Shown: one piece after another, positions 2,982 to 30,538 of the stretch
Numbering within the stretch: position 1 is the stretch's first letter
How the letters are laid out: every line of letters starts with the position of its first letter
Origin: Massilia atriviolacea
GTDB taxonomy: Bacteria > Pseudomonadota > Gammaproteobacteria > Burkholderiales > Burkholderiaceae_D
Assembly (NCBI RefSeq): GCF_003953935.1
Contig: NZ_RXLQ01000007.1
Location: 286,920-350,919, forward strand
DNA: 64,000 bases
Direction of reading: 5' to 3'
Made by a program: the position numbers and the translations under genes
The notes under the pieces: model-generated
Told to the model about the DNA's origin: nothing
Databases searched by the model: none
What the model saw: the letters and a program-made list of their open reading frames with translations, nothing else

Positions 2982-4226
<1,245 letters not shown>

Positions 4227-7494: not shown

Positions 7495-7926
7495 TTACTT
7501 CGTCACGATCTCCCTCTGCATCGGCGCCAGCCTGGCGACCAGCTTGTTCTGGACCGCCGGCGCCACGCCGTGCCTGTCCATGGCCGCCTGCAAATCCTCG
7601 GCCAGCGCGTTGAACTGCGCGTTGGTGATGTTCAGGCCATCGTGGATCTCTTTCATGTCCTTGCCCCTGTACGTGCAGGGACCGCCGGACAGCGCGCAAA
7701 ACTGCTCTTCCAGCCGCATCGACAGGTTCTTCAGGTCGGTATCCCTGAACGAATCCCTGATGCGCGCGTCCGCCAGGATCAGCGGCACGAAGGTGTCCAC
7801 GATCTTCTTGATGCCGCCCTGCCCGCCCAGCCCCTGGTAGGTGCTGTCGTCGGCGGCGGGGCCGTGCGCGCAGCCGGCGGCCAGCGCCAGCGTGCCGATG
7901 CAAACAAGCTCAGTCAGCGTTCTCAT
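7495..7926 (-). CDS. group 1 truncated haemoglobin with lipoprotein signal
   Basis: 143 residues. Lipoprotein signal MRTLTELVCIGTLALAAGC with lipobox LAAGC, then a truncated-globin domain: YQGLGGQGGIKKIVDTFVPLI at the start, FCALSGGPCTYRGKDMKEIH carrying the proximal (F8) His, then DGLNITNAQFNALAEDLQAAMD. These are group I trHb landmarks. Globins of this class bind O2 or NO and often detoxify NO, normally in the cytosol. Here the lipobox predicts a membrane-anchored periplasmic form. It may share a transcript with the kinase gene 29 bp upstream. Confidence 0.85.
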   Translation of the reverse strand: MRTLTELVCIGTLALAAGCAHGPAADDSTYQGLGGQGGIKKIVDTFVPLILADARIRDSFRDTDLKNLSMRLEEQFCALSGGPCTYRGKDMKEIHDGLNITNAQFNALAEDLQAAMDRHGVAPAVQNKLVARLAPMQREIVTK

Positions 7927-7955
7927 GCGTGCTCCTGTCGTGGTTGGAAGGATGG

Positions 7956-10262
7956 TCAGACGGAAGGATCGGCCTGGTCCGCCTTGGGCGCCAGCGCCTT
8001 GTCCACCGCCGCCGTGAAGGCGTCGATATCGATCGGCTTGGTGAGGTAGGCGAAAAAGCCGGCCGCGATGCTGCGCTTGACGTCGCGCTCCATCGCGTTC
8101 GCACTGAGCGCGATCACCGGAATGTGCGCCGTGCGCGGGTCGTCGCGCAGCAGGCGCTGGGCCTCGTGCCCGTCCATGCCGGGCAGGTTGATGTCCATCA
8201 GGATCACTTGCGGCAGATAGCTCTGCGCCAGGGCGATGCCGAGCTCGGCGCTGGGCGCGGAAATCAGCGCCAGGTCGGGCCGGAAGCCGACGATTTCTTC
8301 GACCAGCATCAGGTTGGCCGGATTGTCTTCCACGTACAGCACGGTGGCCACCGAGGGGTCGCCCGCCGGGGCCGCCGGCAAGGCGCGCGGCGCCGCCGCG
8401 GCGGCCGCGCCATTGACCGGATGGGCGCTGCCGCTGAGCTCGAGCTCGATCCAGAACACGCTGCCGATGCCGGCCGTGCTCGACACGCCGATGGTGCCGC
8501 CCATCAGCTCGACCAGGCGCTTGGTCACCACCAGCCCGATGCCGGTGCCCTCCTCGCTGCCGCCTTCCTGGCCGAGCCGGTTGAAGGGCTGGAACAGGGC
8601 GCTTACCTGGTCGGGCCGCAAGCCCTTGCCCGTATCCTGCACCGAAATGCGCACCCGCGCGCTGCCGATCAGGTTGACGTTGACCACCACCACGCCCTGC
8701 TCGCGGTTGTACTTGATGGCGTTCGACAGCAGGTTCAGCATGATCTGCTTGAGGCGCGTGTGGTCGGCCACCACCATCAGCGGCTCCGGTTTCGGAAACA
8801 CCATGCGGATGCCGCGCTGGGCGGCGCTGTCGCCGACCATGGCTTGCACTTCCTCCAGCAGGCCGGACAGGATCACCGCTTCCAGCGACACGCTCAGGGT
8901 GCCCGACTCGATCTTGGCCAGGTCGAGGATTTCGTTAATCAGGGTCAGCAGATGCTCGCCGGCGGTCAGGATATTGCGCACGAAGTTGCGCTTTTGCACG
9001 GCGGTCGAAGGCAGCTTTTCGTTGGCCAGCAACTGGGCGAAGCCGAGTATCGCGTTGAGCGGGGTGCGCAACTCGTGCGACATGCTGGTCAGGAACAGGT
9101 CCTTGGCCTGGTTGGCGCGTTCCAGCTCGACCTTCTTGTCGTTGAGGGCGCGCTCGATGCGCTTGCGGTCGGTGATGTCGCGGATCGCCGAGGACACCAG
9201 CACCCCGTCCTCGGTGTCCAGCGGCGACAGGCTGATTTCGACCGGAAACTCGCTGCCGTCGCGGCGCAGGCCGTACAGCTCCAGTCCGGCGCCCATCGAA
9301 CGCGGACGGGGGCCGGCCGAAAAACTGCTGCGGAAATGCGGATGCTGCTCGGCGAAGCGTTGCGGAATCAGGATTTCGACCTTCTTGCCGAGCAGCTCGC
9401 TGCGCGGATAGCCGAACAGCTTTTCGGTCTGCGAATTGACGAGTACGATTTCGCCGTCGCGGTTGACGATCACGATCGCGTCCGGCGCCGATTCGAGCAA
9501 GCCGCGGAATTTCTGCTCGGCCTTCTTGCGCTCGCCCACATTGCGGATCGCGCTGATGACGAAGGTGCCGGCATCGGTGCTGATGGGCGAAAGGCTGATT
9601 TCCACCGGGAACTCGACCTGGTCCTTGCGCACCCCGTACAGTTCCAGCCCCGCGCCCATGGTGCGCGTGCGCGACTGCTCGAAGTAGCGCGAGCGGTGCC
9701 CCACGTGGCCATGCTGGAAGCGGGCCGGCAGCAGGACCTCGATCAGTTGGCCGTTCAGCTCGCCCGGCGCATAGCCGAACAGGCGCTCGGCCTGGGCGTT
9801 GGCCAGCACGATGGTGCCGGTCGGGTTGGCCATGACGATGCTGTCCGGGGTCGACTCGAGCAGGTCGCGGAATTTCGCTTCGATCAGCAGGGTGTCGCGC
9901 GCGGCCTTCGCTTGCGTCATGTCGCGCTTGGTCGAGACGATGTAGGCGATCGTGCCATCGTCGCCGTACACCGCCTTGCTGGAGGCGTCGACGTAGATCA
10001 GGGCGCCGTCCTTGCGCCGGCGCAAGCCTTCATGGTCGGACACACCGCGTTCGAGCACCCTGCGCGCGTAGACGTCGTCGAGTTCGCGCTGGCCGGGCAA
10101 TGCGATCAGCTCGCGCAGGTCGCGCCCCAGCGCTTCCTCGCTGGTATAGCCGAAGATGCGCTCGGCGCCGTTGGTCCAGCGCAGCACCGTGTAGCCCGGC
10201 GTGGTGACGATGACCCCGCCAGGGGCCTCGGTGAGTATGAGCTGATCGAAGTCGATGGGCAT
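7956..10262 (-). CDS. hybrid sensor histidine kinase with three PAS domains and receiver
   Basis: 768 residues, no membrane segment, so a cytosolic sensor. PAS1 covers about residues 5-120, PAS2 125-245 and PAS3 250-370. PAS2 and PAS3 share long stretches (FGYxxx[22 protein letters not shown]), so they look like an internal duplication. HisKA follows with [16 protein letters not shown] (phospho-His near 395), then a HATPase domain ([26 protein letters not shown]) and a C-terminal receiver with acceptor Asp near 690 ([12 protein letters not shown]). Start at MPIDFDQL. No separate response regulator is adjacent, so output probably passes through a distant phosphotransfer partner. Confidence 0.93.
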
Positions 10263-20454: not shown

Positions 20455-20916
20455 GGGTCGTCGATCGGGGATAAGGGAGCCCTGCCATTATAAGCCAGCG
20501 CCGGGCCGGATGCCGGCCGGGGGCCGCATGAGCACCGTCGGCTTTCGCCGCCTGTGCGGCATTCGCGCATCCGGGATGGACGTCTTGAACAATGCCGATC
20601 CATGCCTGGATTGAGCCGAAGATCGCGGCATGCGTCCCGCAACGCGAAAAAACCGGTGATGGGCCCTGCCCGGCCTCCCTGGTCGCTCATCCCGCTAGCA
20701 TGTCAAGGCGCGCGGGCCGCCGCCGCACACCGCGCTTCGATCGAACGCCGGTCCATCCGGCTGGAGGCACAAAACCGATTGTCGCCGCCTTGATCCCGGA
20801 CAAGCAATCGCCTCCCGCACCGCGCCATCAGCCGCATTAGCATAGTTGAAATGCTTCGTTGCCGCGCCAAACGGGCGCCGATAAGCTGGGTGCTCGATCA
20901 TCACCCGTTCACCGCC
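20455..20916. other. 462-bp gap with lipB promoter, no gene seen
   Basis: Between divergent lipB and the TauD-like gene. It contains TATAAT for lipB on the minus strand (20492-20487) but no good -35. Short ORFs here have no family look and no ribosome sites. It marks the left join of the block of four plus-strand genes that separates lipB from ybeD. Confidence 0.4.
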
Positions 20917-21786
20917 ATGGCCGCCGTCCTCGACACCCGTTTCGACATCGTCCCCTTCGACGCCCCGCTGGGCGCGGCCATCATCGGACTCGACCTGTCG
21001 GTCCCGCTGAGCCGGGACGACTTTGCCCTGATCCACCGCGCCCACCTCGAGCACCATGTGCTGGTGTTGCGCGACCAGCACATCACGCCGGCCCAGCAGG
21101 TGGCGTTCAGCCGCCGCTTCGGTCCGCTGCAAATCCATGTGCTGCGCCAGTTCCAGCTGCCCGCCGCGCCGCAAGTACTGCGCATTTCCAACATCAAGGA
21201 AAACGGCCAGCCGATCGGCCTGGGCGACGCCGGCCATTTCTGGCATTCGGACCTGTCCTACAAGCCCACCCCCAGCCTGGGCTCGATGCTGCACGCGCAG
21301 GAGTTGCCGGCCGAGGGTGGCGATACCCTGTTCGCCAACCAGCACCTGGCCTGGGACAAGCTGCCCGGCTACCTGCGGCGCGCCATCGACGGCCGCAGTG
21401 CCGAACACAGCTACCTGGCCAAGTATGCCGAACTGCAAAAGCGCAGCCCGTGGCGTCCCAACCTGACGCGCGCCCAGATCGAGGAAGTCAAGCCGGTCAC
21501 CCATCCGATCGTGCGCACCCATCCGGAAACCGGGCGCCGCGCGCTGTTTGTCAGCGAGCATTTCACCACCCGCGTGATCGGCTTGCCGGACAGCGACAGC
21601 CGCGCCCTGCTCGATGCGCTGTTCGCCTTCAGCACCCGTCCCGAGTTCATTTACCGCCACCAGTGGCAGGCGCGCGACATGGTGTTCTGGGACAACCGCT
21701 CGGTCGTGCACCTGGCCGCCGGTTGCCCGGAACATCAGCGCCGCTTGCTGTACCGCACCACCATCGAAGGCAATGCGCCGTTCTGA
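20917..21786 (+). CDS. TauD/TfdA-family 2-oxoglutarate/Fe(II) dioxygenase
   Basis: 289 residues. The iron site is H-x-D in GHFWHSDLSYKP, with the distal His in VFWDNRSVVHLAAG and the 2-oxoglutarate Arg in RRLLYRTTIEG. In sulfonate or taurine use, TauD-type enzymes hydroxylate the carbon next to the sulfonate and release sulfite. Start taken at ATG 20917; an upstream in-frame Met (20851) lacks a ribosome site. It leads an operon with a substrate-binding protein, ATPase and permease, which makes a sulfonate-type substrate likely but unproved. Confidence 0.88.
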   Translation: MAAVLDTRFDIVPFDAPLGAAIIGLDLSVPLSRDDFALIHRAHLEHHVLVLRDQHITPAQQVAFSRRFGPLQIHVLRQFQLPAAPQVLRISNIKENGQPIGLGDAGHFWHSDLSYKPTPSLGSMLHAQELPAEGGDTLFANQHLAWDKLPGYLRRAIDGRSAEHSYLAKYAELQKRSPWRPNLTRAQIEEVKPVTHPIVRTHPETGRRALFVSEHFTTRVIGLPDSDSRALLDALFAFSTRPEFIYRHQWQARDMVFWDNRSVVHLAAGCPEHQRRLLYRTTIEGNAPF

Positions 21787-21810: not shown

Positions 21811-22815
21811 ATGACTCTGTTGAAGAAAGCCGCCATCGCCCTGGCCTGCTGCGCCACCCTGGCCGCCAGTCCGGCCCGGGCCGAAGGGCGCATCCGCATC
21901 GCCGAGCAGTTCGGCATCGTGTACCTGCTGCTGAACGTGGCGCAGGACCAGAAACTGATCGAAAAGCATGGCCGCAAGCAGGGCGTGGAGATCGACGTGG
22001 ACTGGGTCAAGCTGTCGGGCGGGGCGGCCATCAACGATGCGCTGCTGTCGGGCTCGATCGACATCGCCAGCGCCGGCATCGGTCCCCTGCTGACCGTGTG
22101 GGATCGCACCGCCGGCAAGCAGAACGTCAAGGGCGTGGCATCGCTGGGCAACTTTCCGTATTACCTGATCAGCACCAATCCGAACGTCAGGACCATTGCG
22201 GACTTCAGCGACAGGGACCGGATTGCGCTGCCGGCGGTGACGGTGTCGGTGCAGGCGCGGATTTTGCAGATGGCGGCGGCGAAACAGTGGGGCACGGCCG
22301 AGTTCAAGAAACTCGACCGCCTGACGCAGGCGCTGCCGCATCCGGACGCGGCCGCCGCGATCATCGCCGGCCAGACCGAAATCAATGCCCATTTCGCCAC
22401 CCCGCCTTACCAGGAACAGGAACTGGCGGCCAATCCCAGGGCCCATATCGTGCTCGATTCCTACGCGGTGCAGGGCGGGCCCGGTTCCTCGACCGTGCTG
22501 TACGCCACCGAAAAATATTTGAAGGACAATCCCAAGACCTACCGCGCCTTTGTCGACGCGCTGGCCGAGGCGGCGCAGTTCATCAGCGCCAGCCCCGAAG
22601 CGGCAGCCGATGCCTACCTGCGCGTGAACAAAAGCAGCATCGAGCGCGCCCTGCTGCTGAAAGTCATCAAGAACCCGAAAATCCAGTTCCAGGTGGCGCC
22701 GCAAAACACCTTCGGCCTGGCGCAATTCCTGTACCAGGCCGGCGCGCTGAAAAAGCAGCCCACCAGCTGGCGCGATTACTTTTTCCAGAGCCCGGCCGTG
22801 GCCTCGGGGAGCTGA
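21811..22815 (+). CDS. ABC transporter substrate-binding protein, nitrate/sulfonate/taurine type
   Basis: 334 residues. Signal peptide MTLLKKAAIALACCATLAASPARA, then IRIAEQFGIVYLLLNVAQDQKLIEKHGRK and LSGGAAINDALLSGSIDIASAGIGPLLTVWD, the SsuA/TauA-like fold. It captures the solute in the periplasm for the adjoining ATPase and permease. 24 bp after the TauD stop and 1 bp before the ATPase start. Confidence 0.9.
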   Translation: MTLLKKAAIALACCATLAASPARAEGRIRIAEQFGIVYLLLNVAQDQKLIEKHGRKQGVEIDVDWVKLSGGAAINDALLSGSIDIASAGIGPLLTVWDRTAGKQNVKGVASLGNFPYYLISTNPNVRTIADFSDRDRIALPAVTVSVQARILQMAAAKQWGTAEFKKLDRLTQALPHPDAAAAIIAGQTEINAHFATPPYQEQELAANPRAHIVLDSYAVQGGPGSSTVLYATEKYLKDNPKTYRAFVDALAEAAQFISASPEAAADAYLRVNKSSIERALLLKVIKNPKIQFQVAPQNTFGLAQFLYQAGALKKQPTSWRDYFFQSPAVASGS

Positions 22816-22816
22816 C

Positions 22817-23818
22817 ATGGACGCGCACCGCTTTCCCATCGGCCCCGGCGACGCGCTGCTGCGCGCCGAGGGCGTCACGCTCGACTACCGCAGCGGCACG
22901 CGCATCGTGCGCGCCACGGACCGGGTGAGCTTCGACGTGCACCGGGGCGACCGCCTGGTGCTGCTGGGGCCGTCCGGCTGCGGCAAGTCGACCTTGCTCA
23001 AGGCCATCGCCGGCTTCATCACGCCGCGCGCCGGCAGCCTGACCCTGGACGGCCAGCCCATCCTGCGCCCCGGACCGGACCGGATCGTGGTGTTCCAGGA
23101 ATTCGACCAGTTGCCACCATGGAAGACGGTCAAGGGGAATGTCATGTTTCCGCTGCTGGCCGGGGGCATGGCCAGGGCCGAGGCCCAGGCGCGCGCGCTG
23201 CACTGGATTAACAAGGTTGGCCTGTCGCAGTTCGCCGATGCCTTTCCGCACACCTTGTCGGGCGGCATGAAGGCGCGCGTGGCGATTGCGCGCGCGCTGG
23301 CGATGCAGCCGGCCATCCTGCTCATGGACGAGCCCTTCGCCGCGCTGGACGCGCTCACGCGCCGCAGCATGCAGGAGGAATTGCAGACCCTGTGGGAAGA
23401 AATCCGCTTCACGATGCTGTTCGTCACCCATTCGATCGAAGAAGCCCTGGTGGTCGGCAACCGCATCGTGCTGCTCTCGCCCCATCCGGGCCGCGTGCGC
23501 GCCGAACTGAACAGCCACCAGTTCGACCTCGGCAGCGCCGGCGGCGAACAGTTCCAGGCGGCCGCCCGGCGCATTCACCGCCTGCTGTTCGGGGACGATG
23601 CGCTGGCGACCGGATCGCCAGCGCAATTGTCCACACCGTTGCCCACAGACTTATCCGACCACTTATCCGACCACTTATCCCAGCGCTTATCCACCGGTTT
23701 ATCCACCGGGCTCAACCAGGAGTTATCCCCCCACTTATCCCACCAGTTATCCGCGCGCTTGTCCAGTCACTTGCCCACAGAGTTATCCACGCAGTTATCC
23801 ACCGGGCTGCACGCATGA
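22817..23818 (+). CDS. ABC transporter ATPase, SsuB/TauB type, with repetitive C-terminal tail
   Basis: 333 residues; about 270 make a normal ATPase. Walker A GPSGCGKST, Q-loop FQEFDQLPPWK, signature LSGGMKARVAIARA, Walker B LLMDEPFAALD, H-loop FVTHSIEEA. The family exports no solute; it powers import through the permease encoded next. After residue 270 the protein becomes a 4-residue repeat of the form x-L-S-x (for example LSDHLSDHLSQRLSTGLSTG) to the stop. This tail is absent from typical SsuB/TauB proteins, and its codons form a 12-bp DNA repeat. The stop overlaps the permease start (ATGA). Confidence 0.93.
   Translation: MDAHRFPIGPGDALLRAEGVTLDYRSGTRIVRATDRVSFDVHRGDRLVLLGPSGCGKSTLLKAIAGFITPRAGSLTLDGQPILRPGPDRIVVFQEFDQLPPWKTVKGNVMFPLLAGGMARAEAQARALHWINKVGLSQFADAFPHTLSGGMKARVAIARALAMQPAILLMDEPFAALDALTRRSMQEELQTLWEEIRFTMLFVTHSIEEALVVGNRIVLLSPHPGRVRAELNSHQFDLGSAGGEQFQAAARRIHRLLFGDDALATGSPAQLSTPLPTDLSDHLSDHLSQRLSTGLSTGLNQELSPHLSHQLSARLSSHLPTELSTQLSTGLHA
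23627..23806 (+). repeat. 15-unit 12-bp array of DnaA-box-like motifs
   Basis: Fifteen in-register 12-bp units begin at 23627, 23639, 23651 and so on to 23795. Ten begin TTATCC, two TTGTCC, two TTGCCC and one (23711) is degenerate, CTCAAC. The nearest to the DnaA-box consensus TTATNCACA are TTGTCCACA (23627), TTATCCACC (23687, 23699, 23795) and TTATCCACG (23783), each one base off. TTGCCCACA (23639, 23771) is two bases off. All point the same way. The second half of each unit varies while the TTATCC core is kept. The array lies inside the ATPase coding frame, one unit per four codons. Confidence 0.8.
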
Positions 23819-24705
23819 GCGCGCGCCTTCTGCCGCCGATCCGGCCGGAATATGTGGTGCCCCTGAGCGCGCCCGCCCCGGCCGTGCAGGCCGATCCGCC
23901 GGCGCCGCTGCGGCGCGCGCTGGGGCACGCCTGGCTGCGCAAGTCGCTCCTGCTGCTGCTGCTGGCGGCGCTGTGGGAGGCGCTGGCGCGCTGGCAGGAC
24001 AAGGACTTGCTGCTGCCGGGCGCGCTGCAGACGGCGCGCGCCTTTGCCGCCGGCATGGTCTCGGGCGAATTGCCGGGCTACGTGGCGGCCTCGCTGGCGG
24101 TGCTGGTGCAGGGTTACGCGCTGGGCGTGGCCGGGGCGCTGGTGCTGACTTCGCTGGCGATCGGCACCCGCTTCGGGCGCGATCTGCTGGAAACCCTGAC
24201 CGCGATGTTCAATCCCCTGCCCGCCATCGCGCTGCTGCCGCTGGCGCTGCTGTGGTTCGGCCTGGGCCGCGCCAGCCTGGTGTTCGTGCTGGTCCATTCG
24301 GTGATGTGGCCGCTGGCGCTGAACGCGTATGCCGGATTCGGCAGCGTCCCCGAGACCTTGCGCATGGCCGGGCGCAATTACGGCCTGAACGGGACGCGGC
24401 TGGTGTTCCAGGTGATGATTCCGGCGGCGTTGCCGGCGATTCTGTCGGGCCTGAAAATCGCCTGGGCCTTCGCCTGGCGCACCCTGATTGCGGCCGAGCT
24501 GGTGTTCGGGACGACCTCGGGAAAAGGCGGGCTCGGCTGGTATATCTTCCAGAGCCGCAACGAATTGTTCACCGACAAGGTGTTCGCCGGACTGGCGGCG
24601 GTGATCGTCATCGGCCTGCTGGTCGAGGGCCTGGTGTTCCAGACGCTCGAACGCCTGACGCTGCGGCGCTGGGGCATGCAGCGCCAGGCCTTGGGCACGC
24701 CCTGA
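23815..24705 (+). CDS. ABC transporter permease, SsuC/TauC type
   Basis: 296 residues with about six membrane segments (for example LLLLLLAALWEAL, YALGVAGALVLTSLAIG, VFAGLAAVIVIGLLVEGLVF). The EAA loop that contacts the ATPase is PETLRMAGRNYGLNGTRLVFQVMIPAALPAILSGLKIAWAFAW, of the nitrate/sulfonate family. Start overlaps the ATPase stop by 4 bp. It ends 3 bp before the convergent ybeD gene. Confidence 0.92.
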   Translation: MSARLLPPIRPEYVVPLSAPAPAVQADPPAPLRRALGHAWLRKSLLLLLLAALWEALARWQDKDLLLPGALQTARAFAAGMVSGELPGYVAASLAVLVQGYALGVAGALVLTSLAIGTRFGRDLLETLTAMFNPLPAIALLPLALLWFGLGRASLVFVLVHSVMWPLALNAYAGFGSVPETLRMAGRNYGLNGTRLVFQVMIPAALPAILSGLKIAWAFAWRTLIAAELVFGTTSGKGGLGWYIFQSRNELFTDKVFAGLAAVIVIGLLVEGLVFQTLERLTLRRWGMQRQALGTP

Positions 24706-28254: not shown

Positions 28255-28539
28255 TTACTTCTTCTTCGGGTTGACCGCAGCCTTCAGGGTCGCGCCAGCC
28301 GAAAACTTAGGCGACTTCGACGCCGCGATCTTGATCGCTTCGCCAGTCGATGGATTGCGGCCCTTGCGCGCAGCGCGCTTGGCAACGGAGAAGGTACCGA
28401 AACCGGTGATCCCTACCGTGTCGCCTTTTTTCAGACGCTCGGTGATGATCTCGATGATCGTGTTCACCGCGCTGTTGGCAGCTGCGCCGGACATTTCTGT
28501 ACGCTTCGCAAATTCCGCAATCAGTTCGCCTTTTTTCAT
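28255..28539 (-). CDS. HU-family DNA-binding protein
   Basis: 94 residues, the usual HU length. MKKGELIAEFAKRTEMSG at the start, then VNTIIEIITERLKKGDTVGITGFGTFSVAKRAARKGRNPSTGEAIKI, which includes the DNA-bending arm with its NP turn. The C-terminus ends in Lys-rich PKKK. Histone-like proteins bend and compact DNA. A good ribosome site (GGGAGGA) precedes the ATG, and the 5' region is AT-rich. Confidence 0.97.
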   Translation of the reverse strand: MKKGELIAEFAKRTEMSGAAANSAVNTIIEIITERLKKGDTVGITGFGTFSVAKRAARKGRNPSTGEAIKIAASKSPKFSAGATLKAAVNPKKK

Positions 28540-28695
28540 AAAAATCCTCCCGTGTTAAAAGAGCGGGAAGATTAGCATAATTATTGCCTAATGTAATAAA
28601 TTCTAAAGTGTACGCACAAAAGTAAGCCCCGCTGTGACTGGATCACGACGAGATCGGGGGCCATTGCGCGCAGCCGCGACGGCGGCGCGCGCGGC

Positions 28696-30092: not shown

Positions 30093-30103
30093 CGTCTCCT
30101 GAT

Positions 30104-30337
30104 GTCCACCGCGGTGCCTGGCACCGAAGTGGACATTTCCCTCCCCGATGTCCACCCCGGTGCCTGTCCACCCCGGTGCCTGTCCACCCTGGTGCCTGGC
30201 ACCGAAGTGGACAATTTTCCCCTGATGTCCACCCCGGTGCCTGTCACCGAAGTGGACAATTTCCTCCGCTTTCCATCCCGTGTCCACGCTGGCGCCTGCC
30301 GCCGTGTCCACTCTGGTGCCTGGCACCGCAGTGGACA
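30104..30337. repeat. intergenic array of GTCCAC...GTGGAC palindromes
   Basis: Four complete palindromes of about 32-33 bp, TGTCCAC ... GGTGCC-TGGCACCG ... GTGGACA, at 30104-30135, 30181-30213, 30226-30258 and 30305-30337, plus half units at 30149, 30165 and 30281. Each complete unit has an inner GGTGCC/GGCACC stem. It lies between the DUF808 stop and the TonB gene. It is open in several frames but has no gene-like features. Probably a REP/MITE-type element family that has accumulated here. Confidence 0.75.
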
Positions 30338-30538
30338 CGACGCCGTCGGGTCGCCGGCTTCCTTACGCGGAACTGACGAATAAATCCAAACTGTTGTTAT
30401 CAGATCTGCATAGCCGGTTCTGGAATTGACATTGCTTTCTCTTCGTTCCAGTATGGATTAGCAAGTTTTCCACTATTTAGACGGCTGAGTTGATAGGTGT
30501 TTTAAAACAATATTCATAGTTAACCCGAGGGAGCAGGT

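Follow-up and report, generated by a model that had tools for sequence, protein, structure and literature searches.

Whether the uptake of initiator by extra binding sites acts as a timer of replication is a long-debated question. Arrays of weak sites at oriC load DnaA-ATP, and clusters of DnaA boxes occur at chromosomal sites off oriC in Bacillus subtilis and Streptomyces. To our knowledge, these clusters are not built of uniform tandem units of a single pitch within a gene. In E. coli, double DnaA boxes are found at nrdA, polA, purH, DARS2, datA and other loci, and ChIP-seq indicates that DnaA favors in vivo pairs of boxes spaced by 2 or 3 bp (PMC11317965). Mutating either box at purH, or adding one bp between the boxes, greatly reduces binding, and low-affinity pairs at oriC are mentioned in the same source (PMC11317965). 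The datA locus, a group of DnaA boxes not far from oriC through which DnaA may be affected, is non-coding, holds five boxes and requires an IHF site for its function (PMC4585315). As datA, DARS1 and DARS2 are conserved among 59 E. coli strains (PMC4585315), these loci offer no natural contrast.

The array described here shares features with each of these systems. It lies in a stretch of 64,000 nucleotides from Massilia atriviolacea (the window), where fifteen 12-bp units lie head to tail and in frame at the end of an ABC ATPase gene (array at 23627..23806, plus strand). Fourteen units are DnaA-box-like and start with TTATCC (10), TTGTCC (2) or TTGCCC (2), all in a single orientation. Units 1, 6, 7, 14 and 15 are one base off TTWTNCACA, and none of the 15 matches it exactly. 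Position, unit number, orientation, word starts and the five near-matches were all described by an earlier note made from the letters alone, and the sequence and unit listing agree with it on every count. Unit 8 (CTCAACCAGGAG) keeps Leu and has lost the DNA word. Units 3 and 4 are identical, and the units are otherwise degenerate, which is why Tandem Repeats Finder reports only parts of the array (23649-23692 and 23651-23752). The encoded peptide is mostly LSxx or LPxx per unit, with all 15 units in frame, and the 60 array codons precede a terminal Leu-His-Ala. Words within one base of TTRTCCACM number 43 in the window against 18.8 expected (maximum of 100 shuffles, 28), and DnaA-box-like words, defined by a slightly different word, reach their peak density in the window at the array. 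As in the E. coli double box, boxes stand head to tail at a spacing of 2-3 bp and are often imperfect (PMC11317965). Unlike the single E. coli pair, the Massilia run comprises 9-15 units of putative sites inside coding sequence, and a perfect box, present in 10 of 13 distinct pairs listed for E. coli in Table 1 of PMC11317965, is found in no Massilia unit. The array resembles the weak-site arrays of oriC in its same-direction weak sites at close pitch, and differs from them in lacking an adjoining AT-rich unwinding region and in lying apart from the inferred oriC. It resembles the Bacillus subtilis and Streptomyces clusters in bringing several DnaA-type boxes together away from oriC. Like datA, it would be a box cluster fairly near the origin with a possible effect on DnaA; in contrast to datA, it is coding and comprises 9-15 tandem units. 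The nearest of four matches in the window to the IHF consensus WATCAANNNNTTR (at most one mismatch) lies 6.6 kb from the array, and membership in the datA class is therefore not claimed. Our literature search, conducted largely outside subscription journals, found no like case of intragenic tandem DnaA boxes or of Massilia DnaA boxes. Clusters of DnaA boxes are known, and an array inside a coding tail would be a new variant.

The host gene (22817..23818, plus strand) encodes an ABC transporter ATPase of the taurine/nitrate/sulfonate type (PF00005, 1.8e-34; best NCBIfam matches under their cut-offs). It sits between the gene for the substrate-binding protein of the same transporter (21811..22815; PF13379, 4.5e-10; TIGR01728 under its cut-off) and a permease gene (23815..24705; PF00528, 8.6e-18). 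A TauD/TfdA-type dioxygenase gene (20851..21786; PF02668, 6.2e-66) lies upstream of the transporter genes, and all three neighbors are on the plus strand. The open frame runs through the array up to the overlap of the ATPase stop with the permease ATG (ATGA), 8 bp past the array. ATPase residues 261-333, comprising the linker and the array tail, are predicted to be disordered, with AlphaFold2 pLDDT below 50 (block mean 29-36). The array is flanked by GC-rich coding sequence, and no AT-rich unwinding element adjoins the boxes. A SIS-domain gene 20 kb away (2996-3592) was earlier proposed as possibly encoding DiaA. In a profile search it passes the NCBIfam cut-off for phosphoheptose isomerase and misses that for DiaA, and this identification is not supported; we take its surroundings to resemble the rsmI-lpoA-diaA-dolP cluster. 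About 5 kb from the array, a gene at window positions 28259-28541 (C64:315177-315459) presumably encodes an HU-like nucleoid protein, judging by likeness.

The distribution of the array is narrow. The ATPase gene DNA was matched at E 1e-60 or better in seven genomes of a genus sample of 17 that included M. atriviolacea. Four genomes carry the array, M. atriviolacea with 15 units and G008, G016 and G002 with nine units each; G016 is identical to Massilia aquatica CCM 8693 (L042) over the 1,786 bases compared. The final three units (23771-23806 in M. atriviolacea) are common to all four carriers, with differences only at two spacer positions. In G010 and G013, the ATPase ends directly in Val-His-Ala without an array, the gene end of G013 being GTCCACGCATGA. 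The gene of G004 is interrupted near codon 233, not far from a contig end, by unrelated sequence (L128 / L007, G004:C211) that resembles the end of a group II intron, and G004 was set aside as uninformative. The ATPase gene of G002 gave two separate matches, one of them containing a TGA, and its array is intact; it is included in the unit counts, is absent from the tree of flank and core, and its core inflates the amino-acid differences in the cross-species synonymous comparison. In that tree, G010 and G013 form a clade (99/97) with the carriers unresolved beside it, so that both a single gain and one gain with one loss are possible. The check proposed in the earlier note, a search for the array and for gain or loss of units in related genomes, thus gave three more carriers with nine rather than 15 units, and two close relatives without the array. 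Three consecutive TTRYCC units at 12-bp pitch were present in one of 80 homologue loci from named genomes, that of M. aquatica (L042), and in none of the other 79, in a scan that shorter or mixed-pitch arrays escape. Tail extraction gave no result for L044, where the expression missed, and for L128 (G004); L044 was included in the 80-locus scan. The exact triple pattern was found in 4 of 17 genus genomes (reversed control, 0). In the family sample of 392 genomes, 18 have it, compared with 4 for the reversed control. Within the M. atriviolacea genome (7.36 Mb, 80 contigs), a triple-unit pattern with up to two mismatches gave ten matches, eight of them in the array and two as weak three-unit matches elsewhere, with none for the reversed pattern. 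No further multi-unit array of the pattern was found in this genome, and the idea of a dispersed genome repeat was rejected on these grounds.

Codon usage indicates that the word is likely held at the DNA level. Across the 42 units of the four carriers, codon 1 is TTA in 25, TTG in 15, CTC in one and TCG in one, and codon 2 is TCC in 28, CCC in 11 and AAC, TAC or TGC in one each. The likely DNA-level constraint follows from the preference for TTA or TTG at codon 1 (40/42) and from the third base of codon 2, a synonymous position for Ser and Pro, which is C in 42/42 units. Genome usage over 237 ORFs gives TTA 0.8%, TTG 7.7% and CTG 71% of Leu codons and TCC 15.5% of Ser codons. The ten TTA codons of the M. 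atriviolacea array had been noticed earlier as absent from the preceding 270 codons, and the contrast extends to 0 of 227 Leu codons in six neighboring genes, those 270 codons included. Relatives writing the same leucines with CTG or CTC had been named, together with a failure of DnaA to bind, as the observation that would favor simple slippage; across the four genomes the codons instead favor the DNA-level reading. Among 29 distinct units, pairwise differences at columns 1-8 are 0.07, 0.07, 0.53, 0.39, 0.20, 0.00, 0.40 and 0.46, and at columns 9-12 0.53-0.70, columns 3 and 4 being the variable positions of the word TTRYCC. The three nine-unit genomes, which differ by 13-18% pairwise at fourfold sites, show 5 variable sites of 72 in columns 1-8 versus 12 of 36 in columns 9-12 (Fisher p 0.001), a contrast to which peptide constraint could contribute in part. 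When codons were redrawn from genome usage with the protein fixed, in a model that leaves out the shared ancestry of the units, 0 of 1000 redraws reached the observed double-box score for each of the four arrays. Cross-species synonymous tests on few sites were not significant, either for codon 2 (0/8 fourfold sites variable versus 10/44 in the core, p 0.33) or for all fourfold sites (2/17 variable, p 0.48). The variability first noticed in the second half of the units holds for M. atriviolacea, where CAC is kept in 7 of 15 units and lost in units 3-5 and 8-12, and much less for the other carriers, where CAC is retained in 23 of 27.

A second array in M. aquatica suggests as well that the DNA word, and not the peptide, has been kept. 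It lies about 1.2 kb downstream of the first (L042:8156-8249) and comprises, as judged by eye, eight further units of the same word, four of which are joined by an automatic chain search. Two of the units are 11 bp long, and with this mixed 11/12-bp pitch no frame yields a uniform peptide repeat. On one side stands a small, intact gene of the minus strand (8267-8686); on the other is a further minus-strand frame (7851-8222) that by eye resembles this gene apart from its N-terminal end, with its listed GTG start located within the array. The units are read from the opposite strand to that of these small genes. Its best pair scores 24.7 under the double-box model described below, against 24.3 in the first array of M. 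aquatica. Together with the TTA or TTG codons, the mixed pitch supports the earlier proposal of selection on the DNA word rather than on the protein. A scan of 269 sources for at least four units at 11-13 bp pitch, in a set of 2.43 Mb biased by many overlaps and by many sources having been chosen by the pattern itself, also returned a 7-box region of 11-bp pitch between genes in L207 and clusters in L215 and L175. The reversed word gave no chains in these 269 sources.

DnaA is the best match found for the word and pitch of the array, as judged from sequence. A box model built from the E. coli pairs of Table 1 in PMC11317965, its E. coli origin weighing against the DnaA reading, was run over 437 kb, made up of contig C64 and 74 kb from the start of C34. 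Four array pairs, all on the plus strand, rank 3, 4, 5 and 9 under this E. coli-derived model. The strongest is TTATCCACC-ggt-TTATCCACC at 23687..23707, with 3-bp spacing and a score of 23.6, followed by TTATCCACG-cag-TTATCCACC at 23783..23803 (21.6), TTGTCCACA-ccg-TTGCCCACA at 23627..23647 (20.9) and TTGCCCACA-gag-TTATCCACG at 23771..23791 (18.5). The best matches in three Markov-1 controls scored 18.6, 14.7 and 19.2, so the fourth pair lies within the control range and under the best control. The array has at least two same-direction TTATCCACA-like matches with 3-bp spacing and keeps the 12-bp pitch throughout. The perfect box TTATCCACA, usual within E. coli pairs, occurs in 0 of 42 units across the four carriers, the best units having one mismatch. 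The DnaA of M. atriviolacea holds the motif GGRDHTTVLHA, which we take to resemble its E. coli counterpart.

Tandem boxes at this pitch appear to be a native device in the family, and this favors the view of the array as another instance of it. Pairs of the form TTATCCAC-N(1-14)-TTATCCAC were found in 81 of the 392 genomes of the family, compared with 15 for the reversed control (by row count). The pitch is 12 bp in 103 of the 131 matches listed (by hand count), many of which represent one site in related species. The top two double boxes in the 437 kb lie on C64 at 175 kb, where TTGTCCACA-aag pairs (C64:175305-175717, L258) occupy an apparent priA-hemE gap, these gene names resting on likeness and being presumptive. 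Family sites of TTATCCAC pairs include the apparent hemE-priA gap in other genera. M. atriviolacea also has TTATCCAC-type pairs at two places on contig C12, in elements about 3.4 kb apart (L217:2346 and 5780) that adjoin a UvrD-like gene. A GCATTTTGTTGAAACCCGC-like stretch is shared upstream of such tandem pairs, also in several other genera, and the tandem double boxes of the priA-hemE gap and C12 are perhaps a conserved DnaA regulatory element.

The likely oriC is a cluster at C34:27237-27798, with five exact TTATCCACA in a 570-bp stretch and AT-rich, TAGTAG-type repeats in a seemingly duplicated layout. Five-box clusters with spacing equal within a few bases occur at G010:C1:423917-424478, G013:C1:1785553-1786116 and G008:C54:27311-27872. 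The C34 cluster has parS-like sites and parB nearby, and the orientation of rRNA operons in G010 is compatible with an origin at 10-1351 kb. Two other candidates were rejected: an origin at dnaA, since the 8-kb stretch holding dnaA has a single exact box, and an origin at the two C12 elements, against which the rRNA operon orientation speaks. Noise in the GC skew of G010 (twenty samples of 20 kb) prevented placement of the origin, and in G016 one 20-kb stretch near a parS-like site (L268) held no exact box, so that oriC was not located there. If contigs C64 and C34 join, the array of M. atriviolacea lies about 81 kb from the inferred oriC and dnaA about 370 kb from it (about 385 kb in the closed G010). 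In G010 and G013, 96 and 118 kb, respectively, separate the ATPase locus from the inferred oriC. These two genomes lack the array and have oriC, dnaA and the ATPase gene similarly placed, so position is weak evidence.

A neutral or selfish minisatellite, expanded by slippage, copied once in M. aquatica and devoid of function, could account for the clade-limited array, the change between nine and 15 units, the identical neighboring units and even the second M. aquatica array, which could be a copy of the first. The gene end of the array-free G013 offers a possible seed. The triple-unit pattern also recurs in other genes of the family, where several matches resemble ordinary minisatellites, with near-perfect 12-bp repeats (L168, L173, L174), and chains of 4-5 such units, several of them likewise near-perfect minisatellites, occur at L170, L172, L173, L174 and L176. 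Slippage, however, homogenizes all columns alike, yet columns 1, 2 and 6 show little or no variation, in contrast to the nearly saturated columns 9-12. Unit number is moreover constant in three genomes that have diverged appreciably, and TTA is kept despite strong GC pressure, which leaves this explanation rather unlikely. Selection on the LSxx/LPxx repeat itself, for example as a flexible tether close to the permease, with codons retained from a founding unit, seems improbable. Leu at codon 1 (41/42), Thr at codon 3 (30/42), the frame kept in all four ABC genes and unit 8, which counts toward protein constraint, speak for it. The tail is nevertheless predicted to be disordered and is absent in G010, G013 and, as three consecutive units, 79 of 80 homologue loci; the most conserved column is a synonymous one, and a protein reading explains the mixed-pitch, opposite-strand second array poorly.

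The latter difficulty is shared by an RNA element, a C-rich, G-poor and little-structured mRNA serving as a Rho-binding (rut) site or as a translation-coupling spacer before the permease. Windows of 78 nt, taken every 12 nt along the array, have C/G ratios of 2.4-3.1 (maximum 3.7), and windows with C/G of at least 2.5 make up 0.15-0.16% of the contig. Folding is weak, 196 of 200 shuffles folding at least as well as the array (z +1.8), and the array conforms to the RhoTermPredict rule of C every 11-13 nt with C above G (PMC6407284). Of the windows sampled along the contig, 30% on one strand and 37% on the other satisfy the same rule; TT at columns 1-2 is not a requirement of Rho, and ribosomes should cover an array in an open frame. 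With the second array also on the strand opposite to its adjoining small genes, we regard an RNA element as very improbable. CAC is part of the box where DnaA makes base contacts, and its loss in 8 of 15 M. atriviolacea units, set against the retention of TTATCC, could, like the lack of a perfect box in any unit, instead point to another protein recognizing TTRYCC(AC). Such a reader is doubtful given the retention of CAC in most units of the other three carriers and the place of the array pairs among the best double DnaA boxes scanned. DnaA as reader would be likelier than any single rival, favored by word, pitch and native parallels.

The array probably represents a DNA control site concealed within a gene, because DnaA-box-like words stand at the spacing preferred by DnaA and fairly near the likely origin. 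An intragenic DnaA-binding array, perhaps a titration site, is a reading that we consider evenly poised. The fuller proposal, a lineage-specific DnaA sink or platform of 9-15 weak boxes that evolved in coding sequence near oriC in one Massilia clade, is more tentative and falls somewhat short of even. The confinement of the array to one clade, the lack of a perfect box, the loss of CAC in M. atriviolacea and the non-significant synonymous tests speak against the DnaA reading. DnaA binding, cooperativity, titration and any effect on initiation are inferred. Weak DnaA-binding sites would have been written into a dispensable, disordered C-terminal tail of the ABC ATPase, where a pitch of 12 bp (a 9-bp box plus 3 bp) would both reproduce the pair spacing seen in E. 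coli in vivo and keep the frame. Several DnaA molecules might assemble along the array. Lying about 80-120 kb from the likely oriC, the array would be copied soon after initiation, and the copies could sequester DnaA, or provide a platform for its assembly, leaving less free DnaA for re-initiation. If this holds, close sister species that differ at this locus by the gain of 9-15 weak DnaA sites near oriC would provide a natural experiment on initiation, the array-free species serving as natural controls. It would also make the coding tail a DNA-binding platform revealed by its odd codon use.

Other short repeats were observed along the way. Intergenic dyad-type repeats (TGTCCACC...GGTGCCTGGCACC...GTGGACA) occur in several copies and both orientations at window positions 30100-30340. 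The parA-parB gap at about C34 50725-50800 (L186) holds a 15-bp array of ATAGGCATCCCACAA-like units, and four genomes of another genus (L163-L166) have DnaA-like 12-bp units upstream of a ParB-like gene.
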